Virus record (IMG/VR): IMGVR_UViG_3300043331_001010
Span: 1-40,841 of that record
Origin: a virus
Reading direction: 5' to 3' (one strand)
Length of the DNA stretch: 40,841 nt
Made by a program: the position numbers and the translations under genes. Positions 7,644-37,619 of this stretch are shown in pieces; position 1 is the stretch's first letter, and every line of letters starts with the position of its first letter. The notes beneath the pieces are model-generated. The model was given only the letters and a program-made list of their open reading frames with translations, was not told the DNA's origin and did no database searches.

Positions 7644-8513
7644 TTAGGCCTCCGCGCACAGGATCGAGACGACTCGACCCTGCTCCAGCCGGGTGGCCCC
7701 GAAGTCGCCCGTCGCAGCGACCTGCCACGCCTGCTTCTCCGGGATCCAGTCGATGGGAGTCCGCGTGTCCTCCCAGGTCGAGAAGTCGATGCCGCTCTTG
7801 GCGTAGAGGAGGCACGTGCGCACGCCGCCGGAGAGCGCGAGGCGCTGCGTGCGCTTGATGTTGAAGCCGAGCAGCGTGTTCAGCCGCCCGTCCTTCAGCG
7901 TGTACTCGGGCTGGTAGTCCCGCGAGATGACCTGCGTCTCGTTGCGCAGCTCGCGAGCCTGGCGCGCGGCGACCACGAGGTAGATCTCTTCCTCGCTCGG
8001 GTCCACCTCGGCCGCCTCGAGCAGCTCCAGCCCGAGCCGGAGCTTGTCCATCGTCATGCCCACGCCGCCGCTGGCGACCTGGTACGCGGTGTCGAACGCC
8101 TCCGTCTCGGAGCCGTCGCCCACCTCGCCCACCACGGCAGTCCCCGTGGCGGCTGCGATGATGGCCGAGTCCTGCGCGCGACCCAGCGACATGGCGAAGC
8201 TTTCGGCGTACTTGTTCCCGGGCTCCCAGAGCATGCGGAGCGTGTCCGCACGGTCCACGAACTCGCGGAAGTGCCGGCGCTTGGGGAAGACCCAGCGCCG
8301 CCGGTGCGGCACGCTCACGACCGGCAGGTCCTCGTGCCGGGTGCGCTGCTCGAGCGCCTCGACCGAGCCCACCTGGTCGAGCGCCACCGCCTGGCGCCCG
8401 GAGTGCGTGCTGTTGGTGACGGTACTGCGGAGCTTGCTGCCCCGCTGCTGAAGAAGGTGCTTCACCATCGCATTGAACTGCTGATGGCGCGCTACGGTGA
8501 CCTGATCCGACAT
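7644..8513 (-). CDS. Major capsid protein
   Basis: A 289-residue protein forming the icosahedral shell. Recognisable features of the podovirus capsid family related to Phage_capsid_2: an N-terminal helical arm (VARHQQFNAMVKHLLQQRGS), the VPHRRRWVFPKRRHF stretch, a long-helix segment (MTMDKLRLGLELLEAAEVD), and the conserved NETQVISRDYQPEYTL...LLGFNIKRT block near residues 195-230. It ends with a WIPEKQAWQVA...GATRLEQGRV strand, typical of the capsid P-domain closure. It follows the scaffold gene after a 218-base gap that holds three related hairpins in the mRNA leader. ATG 8513 has AGGTG a few bases upstream. Confidence 0.85.
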   Translation of the reverse strand: MSDQVTVARHQQFNAMVKHLLQQRGSKLRSTVTNSTHSGRQAVALDQVGSVEALEQRTRHEDLPVVSVPHRRRWVFPKRRHFREFVDRADTLRMLWEPGNKYAESFAMSLGRAQDSAIIAAATGTAVVGEVGDGSETEAFDTAYQVASGGVGMTMDKLRLGLELLEAAEVDPSEEEIYLVVAARQARELRNETQVISRDYQPEYTLKDGRLNTLLGFNIKRTQRLALSGGVRTCLLYAKSGIDFSTWEDTRTPIDWIPEKQAWQVAATGDFGATRLEQGRVVSILCAEA

Positions 8514-8539
8514 GGAAACACCTGCACGTGGTTGTGCGG

Positions 8540-8656
8540 GCGTGTCCGCTCTTCGCGGGGCCTGCGAGTTCCGATCCGGCTACCTGGCGTGTCCGCGCGC
8601 CACCGCGGGGCCATCTACCCTTGGCTAGGCAGCGTGTCCGGACGCCACTCCGGGGC
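8540..8656 (-). promoter_or_regulatory. Three related hairpins in the capsid mRNA leader
   Basis: Three copies of one element, starting about 46 bases apart (8540-8562, 8587-8612, 8632-8656). On the minus strand each reads GCCCCG..., a hairpin, then CGGACACGC. Stems differ but keep pairing: CCGC/GCGG, CCGCG/CGCGG and CCGGA/TCCGG. Two loops read GTGGCG and one is GAAGA. They lie 27-143 bases upstream of the capsid ATG, so they would be in its 5' leader. A regulatory RNA or protein-binding role is inferred. Confidence 0.6.
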
Positions 8657-8731
8657 TGATCGAAAGTCGCCGGCTCGCATGCGCGAGGTGTCGGCTCAGT
8701 CAAGCATGCACGAATTACGCCGCGAGTGCCA

Positions 8732-9595
8732 CTACCGAGGCGGCCCCCCCGCGCCACCCGGGCCCTCGTCCGGGTAGGCCAGCTCGGAGAGTCGGCGGAA
8801 CTCGCGCACCGCCACCGGGTCCCCGCTGTTCACCTTGCTCATGAAGTCGCGATCGCTCATGGCGATCTGCCAGGCCGCCTGGTGCGCCTGCGGAGTGCCG
8901 CCGAAGGGCGTGCTCGCGGTCGCGCCGGGCGCCGGGAAGCCGTCTTCCTTCAGGTTGCGCCCGATGTAGGCGAGCATCTCGAGCGCGCGCTCGGCCCCGG
9001 CCGGCCCGCCGTCGCGCAGCTCCGTCAGCGCCTCGTCGCTCCAGCCGAGCCGCTTCACTGCGCGCTCGGCGTGGCCCATGTTCGCGTCGTGCTCGTTGCC
9101 CCACTTCTCGCGGATTCGGCGCGCCGCGAGCTCAAGATCCCCGCTCTTCCCCTGCGCGGCCTTCTCGGTGTGCTCCTTCGCGAAGCCGACGAACTTCTCG
9201 GCCAGCTTGCGCGCCTGCGCCTTCGTGAGCCCGGCCTCGTGCGCCACGCCCTTGAACCAGTCCCGCAGATCCTCCGCGCCCGCGTCCGGCGCCGGAAGGT
9301 CGTCGTACCCGTCCGCCTTCTCGGGGCGGCCGAGCGCCGTCAGCACCTTGTTCCAGCCCTCGGCGTCCTTCTCGTCTCGCGGCAGCCGCAAGAGCCGATC
9401 TGCCGGCGCGCCGAGGTGGCTCTCCAGGCTCCGGTGCGCCTTCGCCAGCGCCGCGAGCCCTCCCGGGTACTTGAGCTCCGCCCAGCCGCGATCCTCGCCC
9501 GCCAGGCTCTCCAGACTCCACGGACTCGGCGTCGCCGCCGGAGCGCCCGCAGCCGGCGCCCCACTCCCACCGACCTGCTCACCCGCCTCAGCCAT
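8732..9595 (-). CDS. Scaffolding protein
   Basis: A 287-residue, acidic, mostly helical protein encoded just before the major capsid gene, the usual scaffold position. It has a Gly/Ala/Pro-rich disordered N-terminus (residues 1-30), then LKYPGGLAALAKAHRSLESH, which matches the 'YKNPEELAKAYKNLEKKL'-type opening of podovirus scaffolds. Charged helices follow, with a Gly/Pro-rich tail. It would direct procapsid assembly and then leave. ATG 9595 overlaps the upstream gene by eight bases and has GGGGGTGATGA as ribosome site. Confidence 0.75.
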   Translation of the reverse strand: MAEAGEQVGGSGAPAAGAPAATPSPWSLESLAGEDRGWAELKYPGGLAALAKAHRSLESHLGAPADRLLRLPRDEKDAEGWNKVLTALGRPEKADGYDDLPAPDAGAEDLRDWFKGVAHEAGLTKAQARKLAEKFVGFAKEHTEKAAQGKSGDLELAARRIREKWGNEHDANMGHAERAVKRLGWSDEALTELRDGGPAGAERALEMLAYIGRNLKEDGFPAPGATASTPFGGTPQAHQAAWQIAMSDRDFMSKVNSGDPVAVREFRRLSELAYPDEGPGGAGGPPR

Positions 9596-9908
9596 TCATC
9601 ACCCCCCCTTGGACCTCTTCCATGTGCTCGGCGGCCGCGTCGATCTGCGCGTCCGTCGTGTCCAGAAAGCGACGGATGCGGAAGTACACCCGCGCCCGCG
9701 CCATGTGCTCTTTCCAGGCGTCCGGCTCCTCGCGCGCCTCCTTCTCGAGGACCTGCCACTCGAGCTGCGCAGGCTTGCACTGGCAGTACTCGCGCAGGTC
9801 CGCCAGCACGTAGGCGGCGCTCGGCCCCGAGAAGGTCTCGCGGTACTTCGTGACCCCGAAGCGCAGGACCTCGCGCCAGCTCTCGACCGCCTCACGCAGC
9901 CGGCGCAC
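9588..9908 (-). CDS. Bbp19-like structural protein
   Basis: A 106-residue protein. The pattern (tyrosine/phenylalanine-rich FSGPSAAYVLADLREYC near residues 26-42, then ARARVYFRIRRFLD near 69-82) matches the Bbp19-like phage domain found between portal and scaffold genes in BPP-1-like phages. GTG 9908 is the only in-frame start giving the conserved part, with GGGGGG upstream; it overlaps the portal gene by 17 bases. Function in the family is unknown, probably virion assembly. Confidence 0.65.
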   Translation of the reverse strand: MRRLREAVESWREVLRFGVTKYRETFSGPSAAYVLADLREYCQCKPAQLEWQVLEKEAREEPDAWKEHMARARVYFRIRRFLDTTDAQIDAAAEHMEEVQGGVMNG

Positions 9909-11592
9909 TCTGCCCCCCCTGAAGCAGCGTGAGCGCCTGGGCGCCCTTCTGGAGTGCCCCGGCGCCCTGTTCGGCCATCGCGCCCTGCTGCGCTGCAGCC
10001 GCAGCCTCGTTCGCCTGGGCCACCATCTCCTGGAACTCCTCCTCCGGCACGAGCAGCTCCGTGGGCCCGCCGTAGATTTCCATGCTGCGGTCCGCGATCG
10101 CCCCGGGCCGAAACTTCTTGAGGATCATCGGATCCTGCTCGATGAACGGCGCCAGGATCTGCAGCGTGCGCGTGGTCGCCGCCATCTCGCCCGCGCGCAT
10201 GAGCGCGCTCGCCGGGCTCGTGTGCTGGATGCGGTACGTCCCCGCCTCCGCCACCACCGGCGGCACCTCGGGGAAGTCGCCCGCGCGCCAGAGGATGTCC
10301 ACACAGCGCTGCGTCTCGACGCCGAAGAGCTCCGACTGCAGATAGTCCCCCGTGGGGCCCATGAGCTGGCCCTTCTCCTCGAGCCGCTGCGCCACCTCGA
10401 AGGCCGTCTTCACGCTCGGGTCATCGACCAACATCCTCATCAGGTTCAGGCCGAAGGCGTCATCGATCGCCATCTCCTCGTCCTGCATCATCTCGCGCGT
10501 GAGGTCGAGCTTGCCGCCCGTCTCGAAGGGCCGCAGCAGCGGGTTGCCGCGAGAGTCCAGCATCCCGCCGTTCAGCCCCCAGGGCGTGAGGTTGATCTTG
10601 CGCGCGCCGAGCGTGACCGCATCGTCCCGCAGCAGGATCGGCGGCGCCGCCACGCGCTCACCTGACTGCAGGAAGGTCCGCTTCTGCGCGTTGAGCGTCC
10701 CCATCTCGGGGAGCACCAGCATGCCCGCGCCGCGGCCGTAGATTTCGTTGGGCGCGAGCATGTCCCGCGGGAACATGTACGGCATCGTGTAGTAGCCGCC
10801 CTCGTCCACCACCACGCGGTCTTCCAGCGCGAAGTGCAGCGAGCGCCACGCCTTCCCCTCGTTGCCCAGGCTGTCGGGGTTCACGTTGCCCCGCGGCGTC
10901 ACGATGTGCAGCCACTGCATCTCCGCAAAGGGCCGCGTCTCCAGGTTCTGCCGCACCTTCTCGGGCGGGCTCTTGCCCCAGACCTTGCGCCACTTCATGT
11001 CCGCGGCAGCCGCACTCATCTCGTACTGGTAGAAGATCGTCTGCACGCGCCGCTGGTGGTCGACCGCAATCCACACCTGCGAGAGCGGCACCGGGATGTA
11101 GCGGGCCCGGCCGTCCTCCTCGTCCACGAAGAAGCAGCCATTGCCGAACGCGCCGAAGTCCATGAGCGTGCCCTGCAGCGTCTCGTAGAAGCGCGCGCGC
11201 GGGCTGAGCCGCATCTTGAAGATGCGACGCGTGAGGTCCTCGAAGAAGGCCTTCGCGGCAGGATCCTTCGCGAGCTCCTCATCCTCCGGCAGGACCTGCT
11301 GCCACTGCGTGGTCTTGGGCGCGGTGAGCGAGATGATGAAGCGCACCCACTTGCGCAGCGCGCGCGCGGCGTGCGAGCTGTAGACCTCCTGCCGCACCTT
11401 GCGCCCGGGCTCGCGCTTCTGCGTGAACTGATCCGCCTCGGGGTAGATCTTGCGCGCCACCTCGCTGCAGTGCGAGTCGAAGGTGGCCCGGCTGGTCTTC
11501 ACCGAGTCGAAGAGCCCGAGCCAGTAGTCGACGTCCACGCTCGCCTGCAGGGACTGCAGGATCAGGCTCTGTCCCGCCGCAGGCATGGCCAC
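9892..11592 (-). CDS. Portal protein (head-to-tail connector)
   Basis: A 564-566 residue protein forming the dodecameric vertex through which DNA passes; it binds terminase during packaging and the tail ring afterwards. It matches the Head_tail_connector family of T7-like and Bcep22-like phages: HAARALRKWVRFIISLTAP near residue 75, RARFYETLQGTLMDFGAFGN near 127-146, and the conserved PRGNVNPD and MFPRDMLAPNEIYGRGAG segments in the middle. A helical Ala/Gln-rich C-terminus (AAAAAQQGAMAEQGAGALQ) is probably the barrel. Two starts are possible, GTG 11592 or ATG 11586; neither has a clear ribosome site. Confidence 0.88.
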   Translation of the reverse strand: MAMPAAGQSLILQSLQASVDVDYWLGLFDSVKTSRATFDSHCSEVARKIYPEADQFTQKREPGRKVRQEVYSSHAARALRKWVRFIISLTAPKTTQWQQVLPEDEELAKDPAAKAFFEDLTRRIFKMRLSPRARFYETLQGTLMDFGAFGNGCFFVDEEDGRARYIPVPLSQVWIAVDHQRRVQTIFYQYEMSAAAADMKWRKVWGKSPPEKVRQNLETRPFAEMQWLHIVTPRGNVNPDSLGNEGKAWRSLHFALEDRVVVDEGGYYTMPYMFPRDMLAPNEIYGRGAGMLVLPEMGTLNAQKRTFLQSGERVAAPPILLRDDAVTLGARKINLTPWGLNGGMLDSRGNPLLRPFETGGKLDLTREMMQDEEMAIDDAFGLNLMRMLVDDPSVKTAFEVAQRLEEKGQLMGPTGDYLQSELFGVETQRCVDILWRAGDFPEVPPVVAEAGTYRIQHTSPASALMRAGEMAATTRTLQILAPFIEQDPMILKKFRPGAIADRSMEIYGGPTELLVPEEEFQEMVAQANEAAAAAQQGAMAEQGAGALQKGAQALTLLQGGQSAPAA

Positions 11593-17677: not shown

Positions 17678-18556
17678 ATGAAAACAACAGCGTTCAAGGT
17701 CTTCACTCACGACGGCCGCCCGCCTATCCAGGGCGGCGAGCCGATCATCCCCGCGGGCGCTGCGTTCCCGCTTCGGCTGCCGCTGGTCCCCGTCGATGTC
17801 TCCGATGCCGAGTGCGGCGCCGGCTGGAACGCCTGCCGTGAGCTCTCGACCGCGCTGCGCATCGCTGGGCTCTGGCGCACGGGCCGTCCGAATGCAGCTT
17901 ACGTGGTCGAGACGTCGTCGTCGTCGGAGGTAATCGAGCGTGGCGACAAACTCCGTGCGACGACCTGGGACGTCGTCCGCCCCTGCACGCAGGAGGAGAT
18001 CGCAGCGGCCATCCACCGGATGTCCTCGCCCTTCGGGGACTTCCAGGGCGAGATGTCCCAGGAGCAGATGGCCTGGCGTCTCGCACTCGGCCGACCGGGA
18101 GCGGACCGATCTGCGGTAGAGAGCGGTCTACGTCTAGCTCTCGAACATCGCGGCCTGAACTGGACGGTTCGCGAGTTCGATTCCGCCAGGGCCGCCTGGG
18201 CCGCCAGGGACGCCTGGGACGCCAGGGCCGCCTGGGCCGCCAGGGACGCCTGGGACGCCAGGGCCGCCAGGGACGCCTGGGACGCCAGGGCCGCCAGGGA
18301 CGCCTGGGACGCCAGGGCCGCCAGGGACGCCAGGGCCGCCAGGGACGCCTGGGACGCCAGGGACGCCTGGGACGCCTGGGACGCCAGGGCCGCCTGGGCC
18401 GCCTTGACTGTGCACTTCGCCGCGCGCAAGGGCTGGATCAGCCACCGCCCCGATCTGCTGACGATCGGCCTGCGCGACGCCTACGCGAAGGGCCTGGAGA
18501 TCGCTCTGCCGACGGGCCCGAACGAGCTCGGGTACGCGATGCAGGTGGTGTCGTGA
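17678..18556 (+). CDS. Phage protein with 24 tandem A-(W/R)-(A/D) tripeptides
   Basis: A 292-residue protein. ATG 17678 is chosen because GGAGGG sits just upstream; GTG 17660 is an alternative. The N-terminal 165 residues form a globular domain with TAFKVF at the start and [19 protein letters not shown] near residue 50, which recalls the N-terminus of DUF7666-like phage proteins (a short strand pair plus a Gly-x-x-Ala-Cys motif). Residues about 170-241 are 24 tripeptides Ala-(Trp/Arg)-(Ala/Asp). The last 50 residues are again ordinary ([18 protein letters not shown]). Similar Ala/Trp/Arg/Asp repeats are known in that family. Such a repeat is likely a long helix with stacked Trp and Arg/Asp pairs. 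Function unknown; repeat number probably varies. Confidence 0.55.
18185..18400 (+). repeat. 24 tandem 9-base repeats inside a coding region
   Basis: 216 bases made of 24 units GCC-(T/A)GG-G(A/C)C with no interruption. Only two positions vary, encoding Trp/Arg and Asp/Ala. The unit length is a multiple of three, so copy-number change keeps the reading frame. All other frames stay open too, producing long antisense shadow frames, including a collagen-like one. Confidence 0.9.
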
Positions 18557-26393: not shown

Positions 26394-27319
26394 CGGTTGC
26401 CGCCGACGCTGGCGTAGTTGTTCGCCATGAACTCCGCGATCAGCTCGGGCGACGGCTCAGGCGGCGTCGGCGTGGCGTAGGTGTCTAGCCCCATGGCTTT
26501 GTGCTCGGCCACGATGGCGAGCCGGCGCTGCTCTTTCCGGGCGATCTCGCGGTAGGGCCGCTCGGGCTTGCCGACGTAGGTGCGCCAGAAGCTCAGCAGG
26601 CCACCGGGGAGCGGGCGTCCGCGCTCGCGGCACCACGCCTCGCACCCGCGCAGCTCGGCGCGCAGCCACAGGCGCTTCTCCTCCAGCCCGCCCGGCTGGT
26701 CGGCGAGGATGTTCAGCGCCTTGTTGACGTCCGCCTCGAGCTTGTCCTTCGCGGCCCGGGCCTGCTCCGGCGTCGGGGCAGCCTCCGGCAGGTGCTCGAG
26801 CTCGGCCGGCGCCGGCTGGACGGCCTGCTCCGGCGCAGCCAGCGGGGGAGCACTGTGCGCAGCACTCTTCTTCTTCTGACTTCTGACTTCTGACTTCTGA
26901 CTTCTGACTTCTGAAGGGGCACTTTTCGGGCGTTCGATTTGTTGATTTTGTTCAGGAATTTCCCGAGATGACTGGCAGATGTCGAGCAGAACCGTCCAGT
27001 ACGTGTCGTGTTCGTGCAGCTCCCAGGACATCTTCGTGCACAAGTCGCGCACGAGAGCGTCCGCTTCGCGACACTTGCGGTTCCGTTCTCGCGTACTTCT
27101 GCACGGCTTCGTGTCTCCAGCGATCCACATGCGGTCGCCAACGGACAGGACGACGCGGCCCCCCTTCGAGGCGGACCGGGACTGCCAAGCGATGACCTTT
27201 AGACCCAGCCAAGCGCCGCGCAGTGCGGCGTCACCGAAGACGGACGCGTGCTCGGGATCGGGGTTGCGGATCGAACAGGGGACGATCACGGCCGGCTCGC
27301 GCTTTCTCGGTGTCGCCAC
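26390..27319 (-). CDS. Putative replication protein (replisome organiser-like)
   Basis: A 309-residue protein. GTG 27319 is chosen because GGAG lies six bases upstream; the longer frame runs back through a terminator. The N-terminal 115 residues (LRGAWLGLKVIAWQ to HDTYWTVLLDI) look like a winged-helix domain, followed by a Pro/Ala/Ser-rich linker with SEVRSQKSEVRSQK (residues 136-149, encoded by 7-base repeats). A helical C-terminal half (about 185-265) ends with ELIAEFMANNYASVGG. This order (DNA-binding head, linker, helical partner-binding tail) and its place before the primase-helicase suggest an initiator or helicase loader. Family not certain. Confidence 0.55.
   Translation of the reverse strand: MATPRKREPAVIVPCSIRNPDPEHASVFGDAALRGAWLGLKVIAWQSRSASKGGRVVLSVGDRMWIAGDTKPCRSTRERNRKCREADALVRDLCTKMSWELHEHDTYWTVLLDICQSSREIPEQNQQIERPKSAPSEVRSQKSEVRSQKKKSAAHSAPPLAAPEQAVQPAPAELEHLPEAAPTPEQARAAKDKLEADVNKALNILADQPGGLEEKRLWLRAELRGCEAWCRERGRPLPGGLLSFWRTYVGKPERPYREIARKEQRRLAIVAEHKAMGLDTYATPTPPEPSPELIAEFMANNYASVGGNR
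26874..26915 (-). repeat. Heptanucleotide simple repeat inside a gene
   Basis: Five perfect TTCTGAC units plus a sixth with one change (TTCTGAA), tandem and uninterrupted. Three units encode one seven-residue period. Gain or loss of one unit would shift the frame of the replication gene, so it could act as a phase-variable switch or a hot spot of slippage. Confidence 0.9.
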
Positions 27320-29122: not shown

Positions 29123-29289
29123 TCCCGCGGTTCATGTCGCTCATGGATGCGGTGATCTGGGTCTCGGAGCGGGACCGCAAGTGCATCGGCAACGACTGCG
29201 ATCTCGGCGCGCCCTGCAAGCGCCACGATCGCACGTACTCGCTCGGGCTGCGGCTCTGGAAGCGTCAGCTCGTGAAGGGGAAGGCATGA
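29119..29289 (+). CDS. Small cysteine-containing early protein
   Basis: A 56-residue protein. GTG 29119 is preferred because it overlaps the previous stop (GTGA); ATG 29089 or 29134 are alternatives. It has [12 protein letters not shown], three closely spaced cysteines that could bind zinc. Its stop overlaps the Bet start as ATGA. Function unknown. Confidence 0.5.
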
Positions 29290-30257
29290 AGAGTTCAGAC
29301 GTTGCGATTCGTCCCGAGGGGGACTGGAAGCTGGCGCAGCAGCAGAACCGCATCGACTTCACCCAGGAGCAGCTCGGGCTGATCAAGACCCAGATCGCCA
29401 AGGGGGCGACGGACTCTGAGCTGGCGATGTTCTTGGCGCAGTGCCGCCGCACGGGACTCGATCCCTTCGCGCGGCAGATCTTCGCGGTGAAGCGTTGGGA
29501 CTCGAAGGAAGGCCGCCAGGTCATGGCGGTGCAGGTGAGCATCGACGGCTTCCGGCTGATCGCCGAGCGCAGCGGACAGTACGAGGGCCAGGTGGGCCCC
29601 TTCTGGTGCGGCGAGGACGGTCAGTGGAGGGACGTCTGGCTGGACCACAACCCGCCGGCAGCCTCGAAGGTGGGGGTACTGCGCGCGGGCTTCCGCGAGC
29701 CCTGCTGGGGAGTGGCTCGCTTCGACGCCTACGCGCAGCGGACGAAGGACGGCGGGCTCAACTCCATGTGGGCCAAGATGCATGACGTGATGATCGCGAA
29801 GTGCGCGGAGGCCCTCGCCCTGCGCAAGGCGTTCCCGCAGGAACTCTCGGGCCTGTACACCTCGGACGAGATGATGCAGGCCAGTCGCAGTGAACCCGAA
29901 CCCGCGCCCACGCGGAGGTACACGGACGAAGAGATCGAACGCGCGAACGCCACGCCGCCGCCGTCCGCGAAGCGCGAGAAGCCGGCCGGCCCGCCGCCCG
30001 AGGAAGGCTTCGGCGATCTGCCGCCCGACACCGGCCAGCGCTACGGCGTGCCCATCGACCAGAAGCACATCAAGCTGTTCTGGTCCTCGGTCGATGCGCG
30101 GGCCAAGGATCTCGGCATCCCGAAGCGCAAGGAGGACATCGGCCGCAAGCTACTGCAAGCCTACGACATCGAGCACACCAGCGAGATCGGCATGGACATC
30201 TACGACGAGCTGATCCTGCTGGTTTCCAAGTTCCAGATCAAGGACCTGGACGCATGA
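29286..30257 (+). CDS. bet: Bet-type single-strand annealing protein
   Basis: A 323-residue protein of the RecT/Bet superfamily that coats and anneals complementary single strands in phage recombination and recombination-dependent replication. Signature: [20 protein letters not shown] near residues 50-69, [18 protein letters not shown] near 84-101, [20 protein letters not shown] near 160-180 and [14 protein letters not shown] after it. The C-terminus (about residues 205-323) is extra: a Pro/Arg-rich linker, then a helical domain ([20 protein letters not shown]). No partner exonuclease is visible next to it; RusA lies in the opposite operon. ATG 29286 is coupled to the previous gene. Confidence 0.88.
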
Positions 30258-32186: not shown

Positions 32187-35100
32187 CTACTTCTCTTCGA
32201 GCAAGCCCTCGACCAAAAGCGCCGGCGCCCCCGTCGGGATGCCCGCCGCCAGTCCTGCCGAACGGATCACATCGAACATGAACTCGGTGCCATCCTTGGG
32301 ATCGAGCAGGTCCGCACCCTCGCGCGCGAACAGCTCGAGCGGATGCCCGCCCCGCGCGCGCTCGCCGAGCGGCACCGTCCACACATCTCGGATGAAGGGC
32401 ACAGACCCCGCCACGTCGCCCACGGCGGCCTTGATCAGCGCCTTGGCGACCTTCTTTTCGTAGTTGGGGTCATCGGGGTCAGGCACGTCCCCGCCGCTCG
32501 TGAGCGCGTAGATCGCCGCAGCGTAGAGCCCCGGCGCCAGGATGAAGAGCGCGTAGTCCGCCATGCGCTCCGCGCCGAAATTCCCCTTGCGAAAGAGCTG
32601 GTTGTACACCGTGTTGCTGTACGAATAGAACGGCGTGATGAGGCGCAGCAGGTCGTTCTGCTCGAAGGCGCTCTGGTCGAGCTTCGTGCCGCCGCCCTGG
32701 GACTTGCTCACCGCCGCATCCGCCGCCGCCACCGCGCGCGCCTCGGTCATGCCCTGGTTCACCGCCACGCGGTGCGCCGCGAGCCAGATCGGCATGTCCA
32801 CGGTCCGCAGCTGCACCTGGCCGATCAGCTCGAGCGCGAACGCGCCCACGCCGCTCTTGATCTGGCCCGCCTTGCTCTGCGTGCGCACGAGCTCGCGGAT
32901 CTCCTGGTTCCCCGAGCGCGCGCGGTCCCGCATGAAGGGCGAGGCGTCGAAGACCTGCGCGTAGGTGTCGCGCATGCGCTGCGGGCTCCCGCCGCCGAGC
33001 CCCTCCCAGACGCCGCGCATCCAGTCCGCGGAGCTGCCGCCCATCTGCTGAATCACGCGCAGCCCGTTGCTGTGCCCGCTCGCCTGCATGATCAGCGTGG
33101 TGGCCCGGAATCCGAGCTTGAAGATGCTGCCCCGCTGGCGCACCCAGCGCGCCGTCCGCTGCCAGGCCGCCAGCCCCCGCGTATCCGCCGTGTCCCGCGC
33201 CACCGCGCGCAGCCGTGGCGCCCAGAAGTCCCGGAACCCGAACTCCCGCCCGAGCGCCTTCGTGATCGCCCCGTCTACCCCCGGCCGCGCCAGCACGCGC
33301 TGCGCATCGATCAGCGCCTCGCGGTGCGTGAGGTCGAGGATCACCTGGTCCATGTGCGTCGCGATCACGTCGGGACTCAGCAGGAGCGGCCCCGCCACCT
33401 TCGTGCGCTCCCGCGTGTGGCTGTGCCCCGTGCTGGCACGGGTGAAGCCCTCGGAAGCGTTCGGCACGATCTGGCTGCTCTCCTGCTTCTGCCCGAGTTG
33501 GCTGCGGTGCGGGTCGTAGACCACCGGGAAGTAGCCGCCGCGGAAGTCCCCATGCCGCGTGCGCACCGTCTGCGCCTCGATCTTGGGCGGCGCCACACCC
33601 GAGAGGCGCCGCTCCATCGCTGCGACCTCAGGCCAGAGCGAATCGATCAGATCCCACGTCCCCTGGACGAAGGCCCAGTCCTTCGCGTCCAGGTGCGCGT
33701 CGAGCACGGCCTCCACGGTCTGCTGCGACCAGCGATAGCCCTTCAGCAGCTTCTCCATGTTGGAGGCGTTGCCCATGTTGAGCGCGATCATGATGACGTT
33801 CCACTTCGTGACCGGGAACGCGCTGCCACCGCGCCGCTTAAGCCGCGTCTCGCGGACCTGCCGGTCCCAGCCGCTCACCTCCGCCTCGCCGCGAGCCGCG
33901 CGCAGCGCCGACAGCTTCTCTGTGTAGGCCGCCAGCTTGGCGTTGTACTCGCCCTGCGCCGCGCGCAGCGGCTCCCAGACCACCCGGCGCAACACCGAGT
34001 TGGGGTCGTTCCCGGCGAGTGCGTCGATCACGAACTCGGCCTTGCGCAGCGAGGCGTCCAGGCCCCGCGCGGTCGCGCGCACCCGCTCGAGCGGCGACTC
34101 GGTGAACCCGGCAGGCTCCTTGCTGCGGAAGCCCTGCTCCTCGATCACCTCGACGATACGCTCTTCGAGGGACTGCAGCTCGAGCTTCTCGCGCCCGCGC
34201 GTGTAGGTGGTCTCGCGGCGGGCCAGCTCGGCCATGTTCGCGAGCGCGTCCCGCAGGTCCCGCCAGTCCGCCACGGAGAGCTCCCGCGCCGGCGCGCGCT
34301 GCCGCGGGTCCCGCAGGCGATCGCTCAGCACCACCTCGCGCCCGGCGGCTTCCTGTTCCTGCGCCCACTTCTCGGGTGTCATCCCGAGATCCGCGCCAGC
34401 CACCGCCTTGCGCAGCCCGTGGCGCTCCAGGAGCCCATCGATCTGCCGCAGGTACTCGCCCTGCGCGGCCCGGGCGATCGTAGCCCGCGTGGACTTCCCG
34501 CGCGCGAGCTTGGCCATGGCCCGCGTGCCCTTCTCGATCTCCTTCCGGAGCGCGCGGGACTCCTGCTCGAGCACAAGGTTCAGGATCTGCGAGCGCTTGT
34601 GGTCCTGCGCCAGCGCGTAGTCCTTCACCGCCACCGCCTCGACCGCAGCGAGAGCCGCGCGGCGCGCCTGGTCGCGGTACGCCTGCGGGCGGATGTCCTT
34701 CACCACCCGCGCCGCGAGCAGCCGCCGCGCCGCCGCCTTCACCTGGGCCTGCTCCGCCGGCCGCCCGCCCACCTGCCGCGCCAGCGCGCGCTCCTCGATC
34801 TGGAGCACCCGCATCTGCTCGTCGTTCTGGGCCGCGTCCTGGATCGCCTCCTCAGCGCGCTTCTGCTCCAGATCCCCGAACCGCGCCAGCATGCGCGCTT
34901 CGGTCCCGTCCGCGATCGCCTGCTCACGCGCAGGCGCCGAGACGAGCGCATCGACCAGCTCGAACCCGCTCGGGAAGCCGAACAGCTCCGCCACCGCGTC
35001 CGGGTGCAGCCCGCCGATCTGCTGCATTCCCCGTGGAACGACGTCTTCCCAGCTACCGCCGTAGGGACTCTGCCCCATCTCGCGCACGAGGTTGCGATCG

Positions 35101-37619
35101 AGGCGCTGCTCGGGCGTCGCCTCGGGGTCCACGCGCAGCTGCAGGAAGGCGCGGGCCTGCTCGACGGGGGTGCGGTCCACCTCGGCCGTGACCTCGCGCT
35201 GGAAGTCGCGCCGCACGCGCGCGAGGGTGCGGTTCTCGGCGCGTCGCGCCGCCGCCTTGTGCCGGGCCTCCTCGGACATCTCCTGCGAGAGCTTCGCGCG
35301 CGCCTTGCTCCGGGCGCCCTCGAGCGCGGCTTGGTACTGCGCGAACTCGTCCCCCGTGAGCACGCCCGCCGGGTCCGTGAAGAGCGGCGCGGAGAGGCCC
35401 AGTTGGTCCTGGGCCCGGAGCACCGCGATCACCTCTTCCGCCGCCTTGCGGGTCTTGGCGTTGCGGATCGCCTCGACGGCCCAGGACTGGGGCGCCTGCA
35501 CCGGCGCTGTAGCTGAAAGTACAGTGGCTGCGCCTTCTGGCGGCGCGACGCGGTACACCGGGCGCGCAGGAAGACCTCTAGGGATGGACCATCCACCATC
35601 CGCGCGCTGCACTGCGACCGGGTCCTTGATGACCGTGTAACCCCGATGTTCCAGTGCTTGGTAGATACGGTCTGCCGCCGGAGAAACATCGGCGTCAGAG
35701 AACACAACGCGCCCTTCCTCGGCGGCTTGCTGAATCAGCTCCATGTAGGCGCGCAGCCCATGACCGGAGCCGCGATCTTCCTGGCTGTCGATGTGCGAGT
35801 GTTCGATCTTGAGAGCAGGCACGCCCTCGAAATCTCCCACCGCGCCATTTATGACGCCCACCTGATCGCCAGCGGCGTTTCTGATTGGCTTGGTGAAGCC
35901 ATCTCCCTGGATCTGCACTTTGGTGGCCGCCTCGGCCACGGCAGCCGCCAGGGCCACCTCCTGGTCCATCTGCGCGGGGAGCTCCGCCTCGGTCGCCTGG
36001 GCCTCGCGCAGCGTGAGGTCCTCGGGGCGCAGCCTCACGTCCTGCACCAGATCGGGCAGCGCCGGCGCCAGCGTGCCGAAGTAGCGCCCCACCGAGACGC
36101 GCACGTCCCCGCCCGTGGCCATCGCCTCGGGGATCTGGCTCGCCACCTCGGGCATCTGCGCCAGCAGCTCCGGGCTCGCCGCCAGCACCGCAGCCGGGAT
36201 GCGCACGTCCTCGATCCCCGCCTCGCGCGCGAGGGCCTCCGTGAGCTCCCCGAACGCTTGCGGGCTGATCTCGCGCGTCTTGGCCTGGGCCACCGCCTCC
36301 GCCGCGAGCTGCAGCTGGGCGGCGTTCTGCTGCGCCTGGGCCACGCGATCCAGCTTCACCTGCACCGTCTGACCCACGCCCACGAGCGGCAGCACGCCGA
36401 AGGCCGTCTGGACCGCCGTCTCGCTCAGGCGCTCCACGTCCGCCACGTCCAGGCCGATCTCGCGCTGGGGGTCCAGCACCCGGCCCGCCTCGATGTTGAC
36501 CGCCTCCTGGGCGAGCTCGGTACCAATCTCGGTGCCGACCGCCTTCAGCACCTCGCGCGCGGCCGCGATCAGCTGCTGGCGCAGCACCGGGTTCGCCAGC
36601 TGGCGCTTCACCGTCTCCTTGGCAAGATCCGCACCGCGGCCCACCAGCCGGTTCACGCCCGGGATGCGCTTGGCGATGGACTGGAAACCCGCGAACTCCA
36701 GCCCCGCGTTGATCGCGCCGACCGTCACCGCCGCCGCCGCCACCGCGTCCTCGGGCAGCGGCTGCCCCGCCGCGTCCGTGAGGTCCGAGAACTCGGCGAA
36801 GGCGTTGCCACTCTCGAGCAGGAACGCCCCCGCCGCCGAGCCAGGCTTGAGCCCCAGCGTGAATCCCGTGGCCGCCCCCGCCACTGCGCCCGGGACCGCC
36901 CCCACGCCGCCCGCGAGCGCTCCGCCGATGCCGCCCACCACGGCGCCGCCCGCGCCGCCCGCCACGCCGCCCGCCAGCGCGCTCCCGCCGATCGACGCGA
37001 GAATCGGCAGCTGCTCCAGCGGAGCACCCAGGATGTCGTCCATGATGCCCGCACGGCGCGTGGGCCCGAGCTCCCGCGCGCGAAGCTCCTGCCACGTGCG
37101 CCGCTGCTCGAAGCTCACCGGCGACCCCGTGAGGGCGCCCCACATGAGCGGCGCTGCGGCCGCCGGGATCTCGAAGGCCCCCCGGCGTCCCGACTCGAAG
37201 CGGTTGCCCACCACCTCGAAGAGCCCCGGCTCGGGTGCCGCGGGCGCCTGCGGGAGCGCCTGCACCGGCCCGCCCGGGAGCAGCGCTCGGCGGAAGCTCA
37301 GCATCTGCGGCACGTCGTCGCGCACCACCGCCGCGCGCTGCGGGTCCGCGAGGTAGCGCTGCAGCTCGGCGCTCTGCGCAATTTCGTCCCAGGGGAGCGC
37401 GCGCACCGCCTCGCGCTCCTCCACCTCGGGGAGGTTGCGCTCGACCGTCTCCGCCGGCAGCCGCGTGCGCTGCGAGAGCTCGAACACCCGGCCCGCGGTC
37501 CCCGGGTCCTTGGGCGCGGCGAGCTGCCCCGCGGCCTGGGCGCGCTGCAGGCGCTTCTCCTCGAGCTTGCGCTCGAGCGCCGCGTTCACCTCAGAGAGAG
37601 TCGGGTCCGGCGCGCTCAC
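32187..37619 (-). CDS. Giant ejection/large polyvalent protein (1810 residues)
   Basis: An internal virion protein, presumably ejected with DNA, like T7 gp16 or the giant proteins of Bcep22-like phages. N-terminal 130 residues: helical and acidic. A Gly/Ala-rich hydrophobic stretch (about residues 205-260, e.g. SALAGGVAGGAGGAVVGGIG) could insert into membranes. Next come helical Gln/Ala-rich sequence, an inserted GNAT-like domain (about 570-705), long charged coiled coils (about 770-1190), and a conserved C-terminal region from about 1220 (TKWNVIMIALNMGN, then GYFPVVYDP, then LRLITPFYSYSNTVYNQ) that matches the LPD38-type domain of phage polyvalent proteins. ATG 37619 overlaps the gene before it (ATGA). 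No transglycosylase motif was found by eye. Confidence 0.8.
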   Translation of the reverse strand: MSAPDPTLSEVNAALERKLEEKRLQRAQAAGQLAAPKDPGTAGRVFELSQRTRLPAETVERNLPEVEEREAVRALPWDEIAQSAELQRYLADPQRAAVVRDDVPQMLSFRRALLPGGPVQALPQAPAAPEPGLFEVVGNRFESGRRGAFEIPAAAAPLMWGALTGSPVSFEQRRTWQELRARELGPTRRAGIMDDILGAPLEQLPILASIGGSALAGGVAGGAGGAVVGGIGGALAGGVGAVPGAVAGAATGFTLGLKPGSAAGAFLLESGNAFAEFSDLTDAAGQPLPEDAVAAAAVTVGAINAGLEFAGFQSIAKRIPGVNRLVGRGADLAKETVKRQLANPVLRQQLIAAAREVLKAVGTEIGTELAQEAVNIEAGRVLDPQREIGLDVADVERLSETAVQTAFGVLPLVGVGQTVQVKLDRVAQAQQNAAQLQLAAEAVAQAKTREISPQAFGELTEALAREAGIEDVRIPAAVLAASPELLAQMPEVASQIPEAMATGGDVRVSVGRYFGTLAPALPDLVQDVRLRPEDLTLREAQATEAELPAQMDQEVALAAAVAEAATKVQIQGDGFTKPIRNAAGDQVGVINGAVGDFEGVPALKIEHSHIDSQEDRGSGHGLRAYMELIQQAAEEGRVVFSDADVSPAADRIYQALEHRGYTVIKDPVAVQRADGGWSIPRGLPARPVYRVAPPEGAATVLSATAPVQAPQSWAVEAIRNAKTRKAAEEVIAVLRAQDQLGLSAPLFTDPAGVLTGDEFAQYQAALEGARSKARAKLSQEMSEEARHKAAARRAENRTLARVRRDFQREVTAEVDRTPVEQARAFLQLRVDPEATPEQRLDRNLVREMGQSPYGGSWEDVVPRGMQQIGGLHPDAVAELFGFPSGFELVDALVSAPAREQAIADGTEARMLARFGDLEQKRAEEAIQDAAQNDEQMRVLQIEERALARQVGGRPAEQAQVKAAARRLLAARVVKDIRPQAYRDQARRAALAAVEAVAVKDYALAQDHKRSQILNLVLEQESRALRKEIEKGTRAMAKLARGKSTRATIARAAQGEYLRQIDGLLERHGLRKAVAGADLGMTPEKWAQEQEAAGREVVLSDRLRDPRQRAPARELSVADWRDLRDALANMAELARRETTYTRGREKLELQSLEERIVEVIEEQGFRSKEPAGFTESPLERVRATARGLDASLRKAEFVIDALAGNDPNSVLRRVVWEPLRAAQGEYNAKLAAYTEKLSALRAARGEAEVSGWDRQVRETRLKRRGGSAFPVTKWNVIMIALNMGNASNMEKLLKGYRWSQQTVEAVLDAHLDAKDWAFVQGTWDLIDSLWPEVAAMERRLSGVAPPKIEAQTVRTRHGDFRGGYFPVVYDPHRSQLGQKQESSQIVPNASEGFTRASTGHSHTRERTKVAGPLLLSPDVIATHMDQVILDLTHREALIDAQRVLARPGVDGAITKALGREFGFRDFWAPRLRAVARDTADTRGLAAWQRTARWVRQRGSIFKLGFRATTLIMQASGHSNGLRVIQQMGGSSADWMRGVWEGLGGGSPQRMRDTYAQVFDASPFMRDRARSGNQEIRELVRTQSKAGQIKSGVGAFALELIGQVQLRTVDMPIWLAAHRVAVNQGMTEARAVAAADAAVSKSQGGGTKLDQSAFEQNDLLRLITPFYSYSNTVYNQLFRKGNFGAERMADYALFILAPGLYAAAIYALTSGGDVPDPDDPNYEKKVAKALIKAAVGDVAGSVPFIRDVWTVPLGERARGGHPLELFAREGADLLDPKDGTEFMFDVIRSAGLAAGIPTGAPALLVEGLLEEK
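35514..35914 (-). other. GNAT-like domain inserted in the giant protein, distinct base composition
   Basis: The segment encodes an acetyltransferase-like domain: strand-rich VGVINGAVGDFEGVPALKIE, a possible acetyl-CoA loop near SQEDRGSGHGLRAYMELIQQ, and ADRIYQALEHRGYTVIKD, the usual 'A.xLYexxGF' ending. Hand counts give about 60% GC for three 60-base lines here (from 35641, 35761 and 35881), against 78% for lines from 36181 and 36841. This suggests recent gain of the domain. Confidence 0.6.

Follow-up and report, generated by a model that had tools for sequence, protein, structure and literature searches.

The autoregulation of the P22 scaffolding protein is an instance, within a phage head operon, of a scaffold gene under post-transcriptional control; to our knowledge, no RNA element of the kind described here is known for P22. 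With the MS2-type coat-protein operator, translation is controlled through a short hairpin, the interrupted stem of which is read by the capsid protein. The putRNA of phage HK022 is a cis-acting phage RNA of about 70 nt, consisting of two stem-loops right after the promoter, in which bulged internal loops matter; it binds the beta' zinc-binding domain and suppresses termination. The pan motif and the mini-ykkC tandem hairpin leaders are built from a simple stem with a conserved interruption, mostly present in tandem in the 5′ UTR (for the pan motif, PMC2864571), an arrangement that suggests protein binding. The site recognized by ribosomal protein S8 in 16S helix 21 and in spc mRNA has an AUA internal loop opposite a single pyrimidine. 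How the ratio of scaffold to capsid protein is set in double-stranded DNA phages is poorly understood outside a few models.

The stretch of DNA analyzed in this work (hereafter "the window", 40,841 nucleotides) is a 40.8-kb IMG/VR phage contig carrying a podovirus-like head block on the minus strand, with genes for terminase, portal (9892-11592), scaffold and major capsid protein (MCP). The scaffold/capsid-assembly (protease-like) gene (8732..9595, minus) belongs to phrog_3742, shows weak protease matches and has a homologue in MW202898. The MCP gene (7644..8513, minus; PF19821 Phage_capsid_2/phrog_3437) encodes a 289 aa protein of the HTVC010P type, 39% identical to the capsid protein of Pelagibacter phage HTVC010P, and is preceded by a likely Shine-Dalgarno sequence, AGGTG, at 8519..8523 (minus). 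Between the scaffold and capsid genes, approximately 26-120 nt upstream of the MCP start and on the minus strand, lies an array of three hairpins. Elsewhere, the window contains a 9-bp unit, CGCCAGGGA, repeated 24 times with copies 86% alike (18184-18403), six perfect copies of CTTCTGA that are possible iterons (26873-26914), a gene for a RecT-like annealing protein (29181-30257, plus strand; phrog_2780) and one for a large polyvalent protein of 1810 aa with an LPD22 domain (32187-37619, minus strand; phrog_9880).

The three units, all read on the minus strand, are module 1 (8630..8659, CAGC-C-CCGGA-GTGGCG-TCCGG-ACAC-GCTG), module 2 (8585..8614, TGGC-C-CCGCG-GTGGCG-CGCGG-ACAC-GCCA) and module 3 (8539..8563, GGC-C-CCGC-GAAGA-GCGG-ACAC-GCC), the 3′ end of the last lying 25 nt before the capsid start codon. 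In each, the order is outer stem, single C, inner stem beginning with CC/GG, variable loop, ACAC and outer stem, so that all three present an invariant asymmetric internal loop in which a single C faces ACAC. All three meet the definition of the module, namely an internal loop C/A-Y-A-(C/A) and an inner stem closed by CC/GG, and the window meets the criterion for a locus, which requires at least two coding-strand copies ahead of an MCP or scaffold gene. A preliminary description of this stretch, made from the sequence alone, had reported three hairpins in the capsid mRNA leader with a spacing of about 46 bases, two GTGGCG loops and stems that differ through compensating changes. These claims held: there are three minus-strand units, spaced by 45 and 47 nt, two of the three loops read GTGGCG, and compensatory stem changes are also seen in relatives. 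The claim that the units share flanks held only in part, as the shared elements are more exactly the internal loop plus an outer stem which itself covaries between units (CAGC/GCTG versus TGGC/GCCA). The description had not noted that the internal loop is conserved, that some copies are permuted, or that relatives carry a copy in the first scaffold codons (see below); the hairpin observation is confirmed and larger than first claimed. The pattern GCCCCG-N3..20-CGGACACGC occurs three times in the window against 0.05 expected from dinucleotide shuffles, and none of 100 shuffles reached three.

Folding of the leader by itself was not informative in the same way. The stability of the window capsid leader as a whole is not unusual (z = −1.5) and in its minimum-energy fold the pairing of units 1 and 2 departs from the module architecture; therefore, the structure is visible by comparison and not by single-sequence folding. 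In the same fold (8514-8560, minus strand), ACGCC, the 3′ strand of unit 3, is base-paired with a GGUGU that spans the Shine-Dalgarno region. It therefore seems that unit 3 cannot be fully formed while the ribosome site is sequestered, making a switch possible.

A tandem pattern scan of IMG/VR returned dozens of phage contigs with at least two units directly upstream of MCP or scaffold genes (a single-unit pattern scan had been dropped for tandem patterns, as chance matches in GC-rich contigs dominated its output), and across several families the genes downstream of motif-bearing loci are those for MCP or scaffold. One such group, family A (MCP family phrog_9953), was sampled by fetching leaders through the capsid protein and not through the motif. 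The resulting 48 non-redundant leaders harbor 78 units, compared to a mean of 1.5 (maximum 4) in dinucleotide shuffles, and nearly all have exactly two GGAYAC cores, most commonly spaced by 29 nt. A covariance model, R1, was built solely from family A units, with no window sequence included, and was restricted to units of one length because MAFFT misaligned whole units. When R1 was run on the window, the three units were the best 3 of 30 matches, with modules 1, 2 and 3 scoring 20.2, 17.9 and 13.8 bits, respectively (E 0.004, 0.016 and 0.21). When it was run on 24 full records, the best matches clustered in most of them at a single place, the head-gene leader.

Searching with the window MCP alone yielded no relative; those of its family were recovered via an alignment of MCP homologues. 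Their leaders contain 43 units, distributed over 36 of 62 leaders, against 0.5 in shuffles, the fourth loop base being usually A (ATAA/ACAA; AGAA in pelagiphages). Among the carriers are the cultured SAR11 phages HTVC010P, Greip and Baldr. No unit was found in 25 of the 62 leaders (~40%) under a strict scan for the two topologies described below. Leaders of phages with SU10-type capsids (PaP2, Kuura, Tiera, EBPR podovirus 3 and others) are too short for the module, and no module was found in the capsid leader of Mx8/Mx9 and ppBjS10J-1. Two points qualify all of these counts: pairing is part of the unit definitions, with shuffles scored identically, and kinship within families causes the shuffle comparison to overstate the number of independent events. 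The module recurs, its stems kept by matching changes, at capsid and scaffold genes in several phage groups that are unrelated to one another, ocean SAR11 phages among them.

Two members of the window MCP family, L426 and L432, have three units each, of which some have GTGGC(A/G) loops like those of the window. The GTGGCG hexaloop of window units 1 and 2 (8583-8640, minus strand) recurs in this form in the first two units of L432 and in unit 2 of L426; third units carry other loops, and a separate role for the hexaloop is possible. In the L426 leader, CTTCCA and TGGAAG lie on either side of unit 2 and could lengthen its outer stem; GCTGCCT and AGGTAGC could likewise extend that of window unit 2.

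These comparisons bear on the simplest alternative, that the hairpins are intrinsic terminators or attenuators, or chance repeats in GC-rich DNA. In its favor, the hairpins are GC-rich. Against it, no T-run follows a stem and a terminator scan of positions 8450-8900 found no intrinsic terminator; chance is excluded by the shuffles of the window, of family A and of the window-family leaders, and the module persists in the AT-rich genomes of SAR11 phages. The comparative data refute this explanation, which we regard as all but excluded.

The same comparisons revealed that the module occurs in two circularly permuted forms. In the permuted order, an outer stem ending in G is followed by AYAM, a loop-bearing stem, the single C and the other strand of the outer stem, as in L341 (GTCGG-ACAC-TCCG-GAAA-CGGA-C-CCGAC) and L423 (GTCG-ATAA-CCC-GCAA-GGG-C-CGAC). 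Soil phages whose portal is P22-like have permuted units, as do many window relatives, the window MCP family comprising 30 normal and 23 permuted units against 0.4 in shuffles. In pelagiphages, including the cultured HTVC010P and Greip, a permuted unit lies about 135 nt upstream of the MCP gene, and HTVC010P-like leaders have a normal unit near −50. Applied to both strands of the window, the strict two-topology scan returned the three units and one other match. What is common to the two forms is an internal loop in which the single C faces A-Y-A-(C/A), with a C-G pair (usually CC/GG) closing one side and either any Watson-Crick pair or A.G closing the other. As permuted copies retain the internal loop and swap the side bearing the apical loop, it is the internal loop, not the linear order, that is selected.

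Evidence that selection acts on RNA came from covariation and from strand distribution. RNAalifold, given 40 family A leaders, predicted unit 2 exactly, with its 3-bp outer stem, 1x4 loop and CC/GG stem, and with compensating changes in 11 and 3 sequences at the two variable outer pairs. It did not predict unit 1 in these leaders, probably because MAFFT aligns the variable stem of this unit poorly. In gap-free units, 88% of pairs are kept compared to 18-38% when the pairing is slid, and the covariation score is 0.432 versus 0.103 in shuffles; both values derive from units chosen by fit. An anchored count covering all 48 unselected family A leaders, set against shuffles and slides, supported the outer pairs beside the loop in unit 2 and a larger number of outer pairs in unit 1. 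Finally, over 219 kb, 81 matches fell on the coding strand and 7 on the other, a near-exclusive location that argues for RNA. We conclude that the module is real, selected as RNA on the coding strand, and present in two to three copies in the capsid leader. The preliminary description had inferred selection on RNA structure, and comparison with relatives supports this. It had also set a check in advance, that homologues should lie before capsid genes with their stems intact; the check was passed, in that relatives retrieved through the capsid protein have the module in the equivalent position, with stem changes that compensate one another.

A double-stranded DNA site, such as an operator or a recombination or packaging site, remains conceivable insofar as inverted repeats occur in DNA too and late promoters lie nearby in family A. 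However, the 81 to 7 coding-strand bias, the free covariation of stems, G-U pairs included, and the fact that the permuted order preserves pairing and not linear sequence make this very unlikely.

The module is not confined to leaders. In three phage groups (window relatives, family A and the soil group) the scaffold gene bears an extra copy inside its first ~20 codons. Among window relatives, the copy has the normal topology in L396-L407 and the permuted one, in the same region, in pelagiphages, the two being sister groups. The first codons of the window scaffold gene contain no module, and the scaffold-start copy is common among carrier groups without being universal. In the soil group, the scaffold residues vary (QAPAQQDTP, QAPAPPDTP, QAPQNGDTP, QAPPEADTP, QAPLNGDTP) and the inner stem re-pairs each time. 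This looks like RNA selection overriding protein sequence.

In family A, the array is closely associated with a promoter. The motif TTGNNN-N17-TANNNH is present in 45 of 48 leaders (shuffled mean 0.9), a spacer of 17 nt alone standing out among those compared, and it ends 22-30 nt before the first core; the array is therefore at the 5′ end of the capsid transcript, as is putL. In the window, a possible promoter, TTGACT-17 nt-ATGCGA (8675..8703, minus strand), was identified from the sequence and by analogy with other motif-bearing leaders; it has a good −35 and a poor −10 and sits where those leaders have a strong TTG-N17-TA promoter. A consensus scan found no promoter before the window array. 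In L141 and L180, intrinsic-terminator-like hairpins with T-runs end between a few nt and ~16 nt before the first core, leaving little room for a promoter.

This position invites comparison with factor-independent processive antitermination of the HK022 putRNA type: stem-loops arranged in tandem where the late transcript begins would bind RNA polymerase and allow terminators to be read through in the long structural operon. The family A promoters and their distance from the first core speak for it, and a host target would explain the absence of a shared phage protein. Against it, in putRNA two unlike stem-loops make up a single V-shaped fold (PMC9378689), whereas identical modules are repeated here two to four times, at spacings of 27 to 48 nt and in either topology; the copies in scaffold codons are not at a transcript start, and no promoter of the family A kind was found before the window array. 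We consider antitermination unlikely. A role in mRNA stabilization or processing, whereby 5′ hairpins would keep RNase E/RppH off the abundant capsid mRNA or position a cut by RNase III, without any specific binder, also appears unlikely. It is favored by the 5′-proximal location of the hairpins ahead of the gene for the most abundant virion protein and by the promoter directly upstream in family A; but stabilization alone requires neither an invariant C/AYAM loop, nor permuted copies that keep this loop, nor a copy in the scaffold codons.

An invariant internal loop, repeated while stems, apical loops, spacing and topology are free, looks like a protein-binding site, and the presence of the module at the genes of both main procapsid components suggests that the two are made under coordinate control. 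Placement at scaffold and capsid genes, the invariant loop and the repeated independent copies together favor a protein-binding array. On balance, we lean toward the view that the array is a set of protein-binding sites coordinating scaffold and capsid synthesis; binding and regulation are inferred here, in the absence of expression or probing data. The preliminary description had listed translational control, a protein-binding array and mRNA stability as possible roles, and the sequence does not separate the three. Under the protein-binding hypothesis, one RNA-binding protein would bind each module, and through the array it would set scaffold and MCP synthesis after transcription start. The most likely action would be on translation, with a free head-assembly protein, either scaffold or capsid protein not yet assembled, exerting feedback; the alternative partner would be a conserved host factor. 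Modules in MCP leaders end ~25-60 nt before the start codon and leave the Shine-Dalgarno sequence uncovered, so that simple occlusion by a hairpin is unlikely. BLAST and profile searches for an RNA-binding protein shared across the motif-bearing groups returned none; terminase and tail proteins were the only ones in common, and no binder was identified. Consequently, an autogenous binder would need to be a fast-evolving scaffold or capsid protein, and for the same reason the host factor is kept as an alternative. Two observations count against coordinated control of scaffold and capsid: the window scaffold gene lacks the module, and so do, under the strict two-topology scan, 25 of the 62 family leaders.

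A bolder reading, toward which we are more skeptical than convinced, is that a single permutable internal-loop module serves as a mark of scaffold and capsid genes in many tailed phages that are otherwise unrelated, ranging from soil phages to SAR11 pelagiphages. Its reader would be a protein of one conserved kind, either a universal host factor or a head-assembly protein in its free form, which would balance shell-protein synthesis. If true, this would amount to a shared and undescribed control code for phage head assembly. It is unusual for a short RNA that the internal loop is kept across phages without recognizably related proteins, in both permutations and sometimes within coding sequence; such conservation speaks for a partner with strict recognition. 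With a defined RNA element present at both genes in cultured phages, HTVC010P for example, the question of the scaffold to capsid ratio becomes directly testable.

A scan of bacterial genome contigs returned mostly coincidences in coding sequence or tandem repeats, and the copies it found were essentially all of phage origin. The only clear element, L307, represents the L141 phage, present in an assembly of Salinisphaera, so there is no support for a regulatory role in cells. Two loci from an assembly labeled Bifidobacterium breve (L295 and L302) have tandem GGCCCCTTTCGGACACGC-type repeats with conserved spacers, a module-like sequence that is probably unrelated. Rfam 15 covariance models gave no match at a useful score over the arrays of the window and eight motif-bearing loci, with E values up to 5-10 considered, and no description of the module was found in the literature searched, which was limited to open-access papers.

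Structured cis-acting RNA is a known kind of element; the present module appears to be undescribed and has unusual features, a judgment that stays provisional given the open-access limit. CsrA/RsmA sites, in which GGA is unpaired in a hairpin loop, do not fit, as the GG within GGAYAC pairs with CC in almost every unit. The S8 site has a 1x3 loop, U/AUA, compared to the 1x4 C/AYAM loop of the module. The module does not fit among MS2-type operators either: these need a bulged A and a conserved tetraloop, whereas the module, found in double-stranded DNA phages, conserves the internal loop and varies its apical loops in length and sequence. The pan motif has two bulged A residues and belongs to cellular pantothenate genes, unlike a permuted 1x4 C/AYAM loop at phage head genes. 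The module differs from putRNA in being repeated two to four times in either topology, at head genes and not early promoters, and also inside coding sequence, there being no data on polymerase contact. Compared to the P22 case, finally, the module is found at the capsid gene as well, and in phages unrelated to P22.
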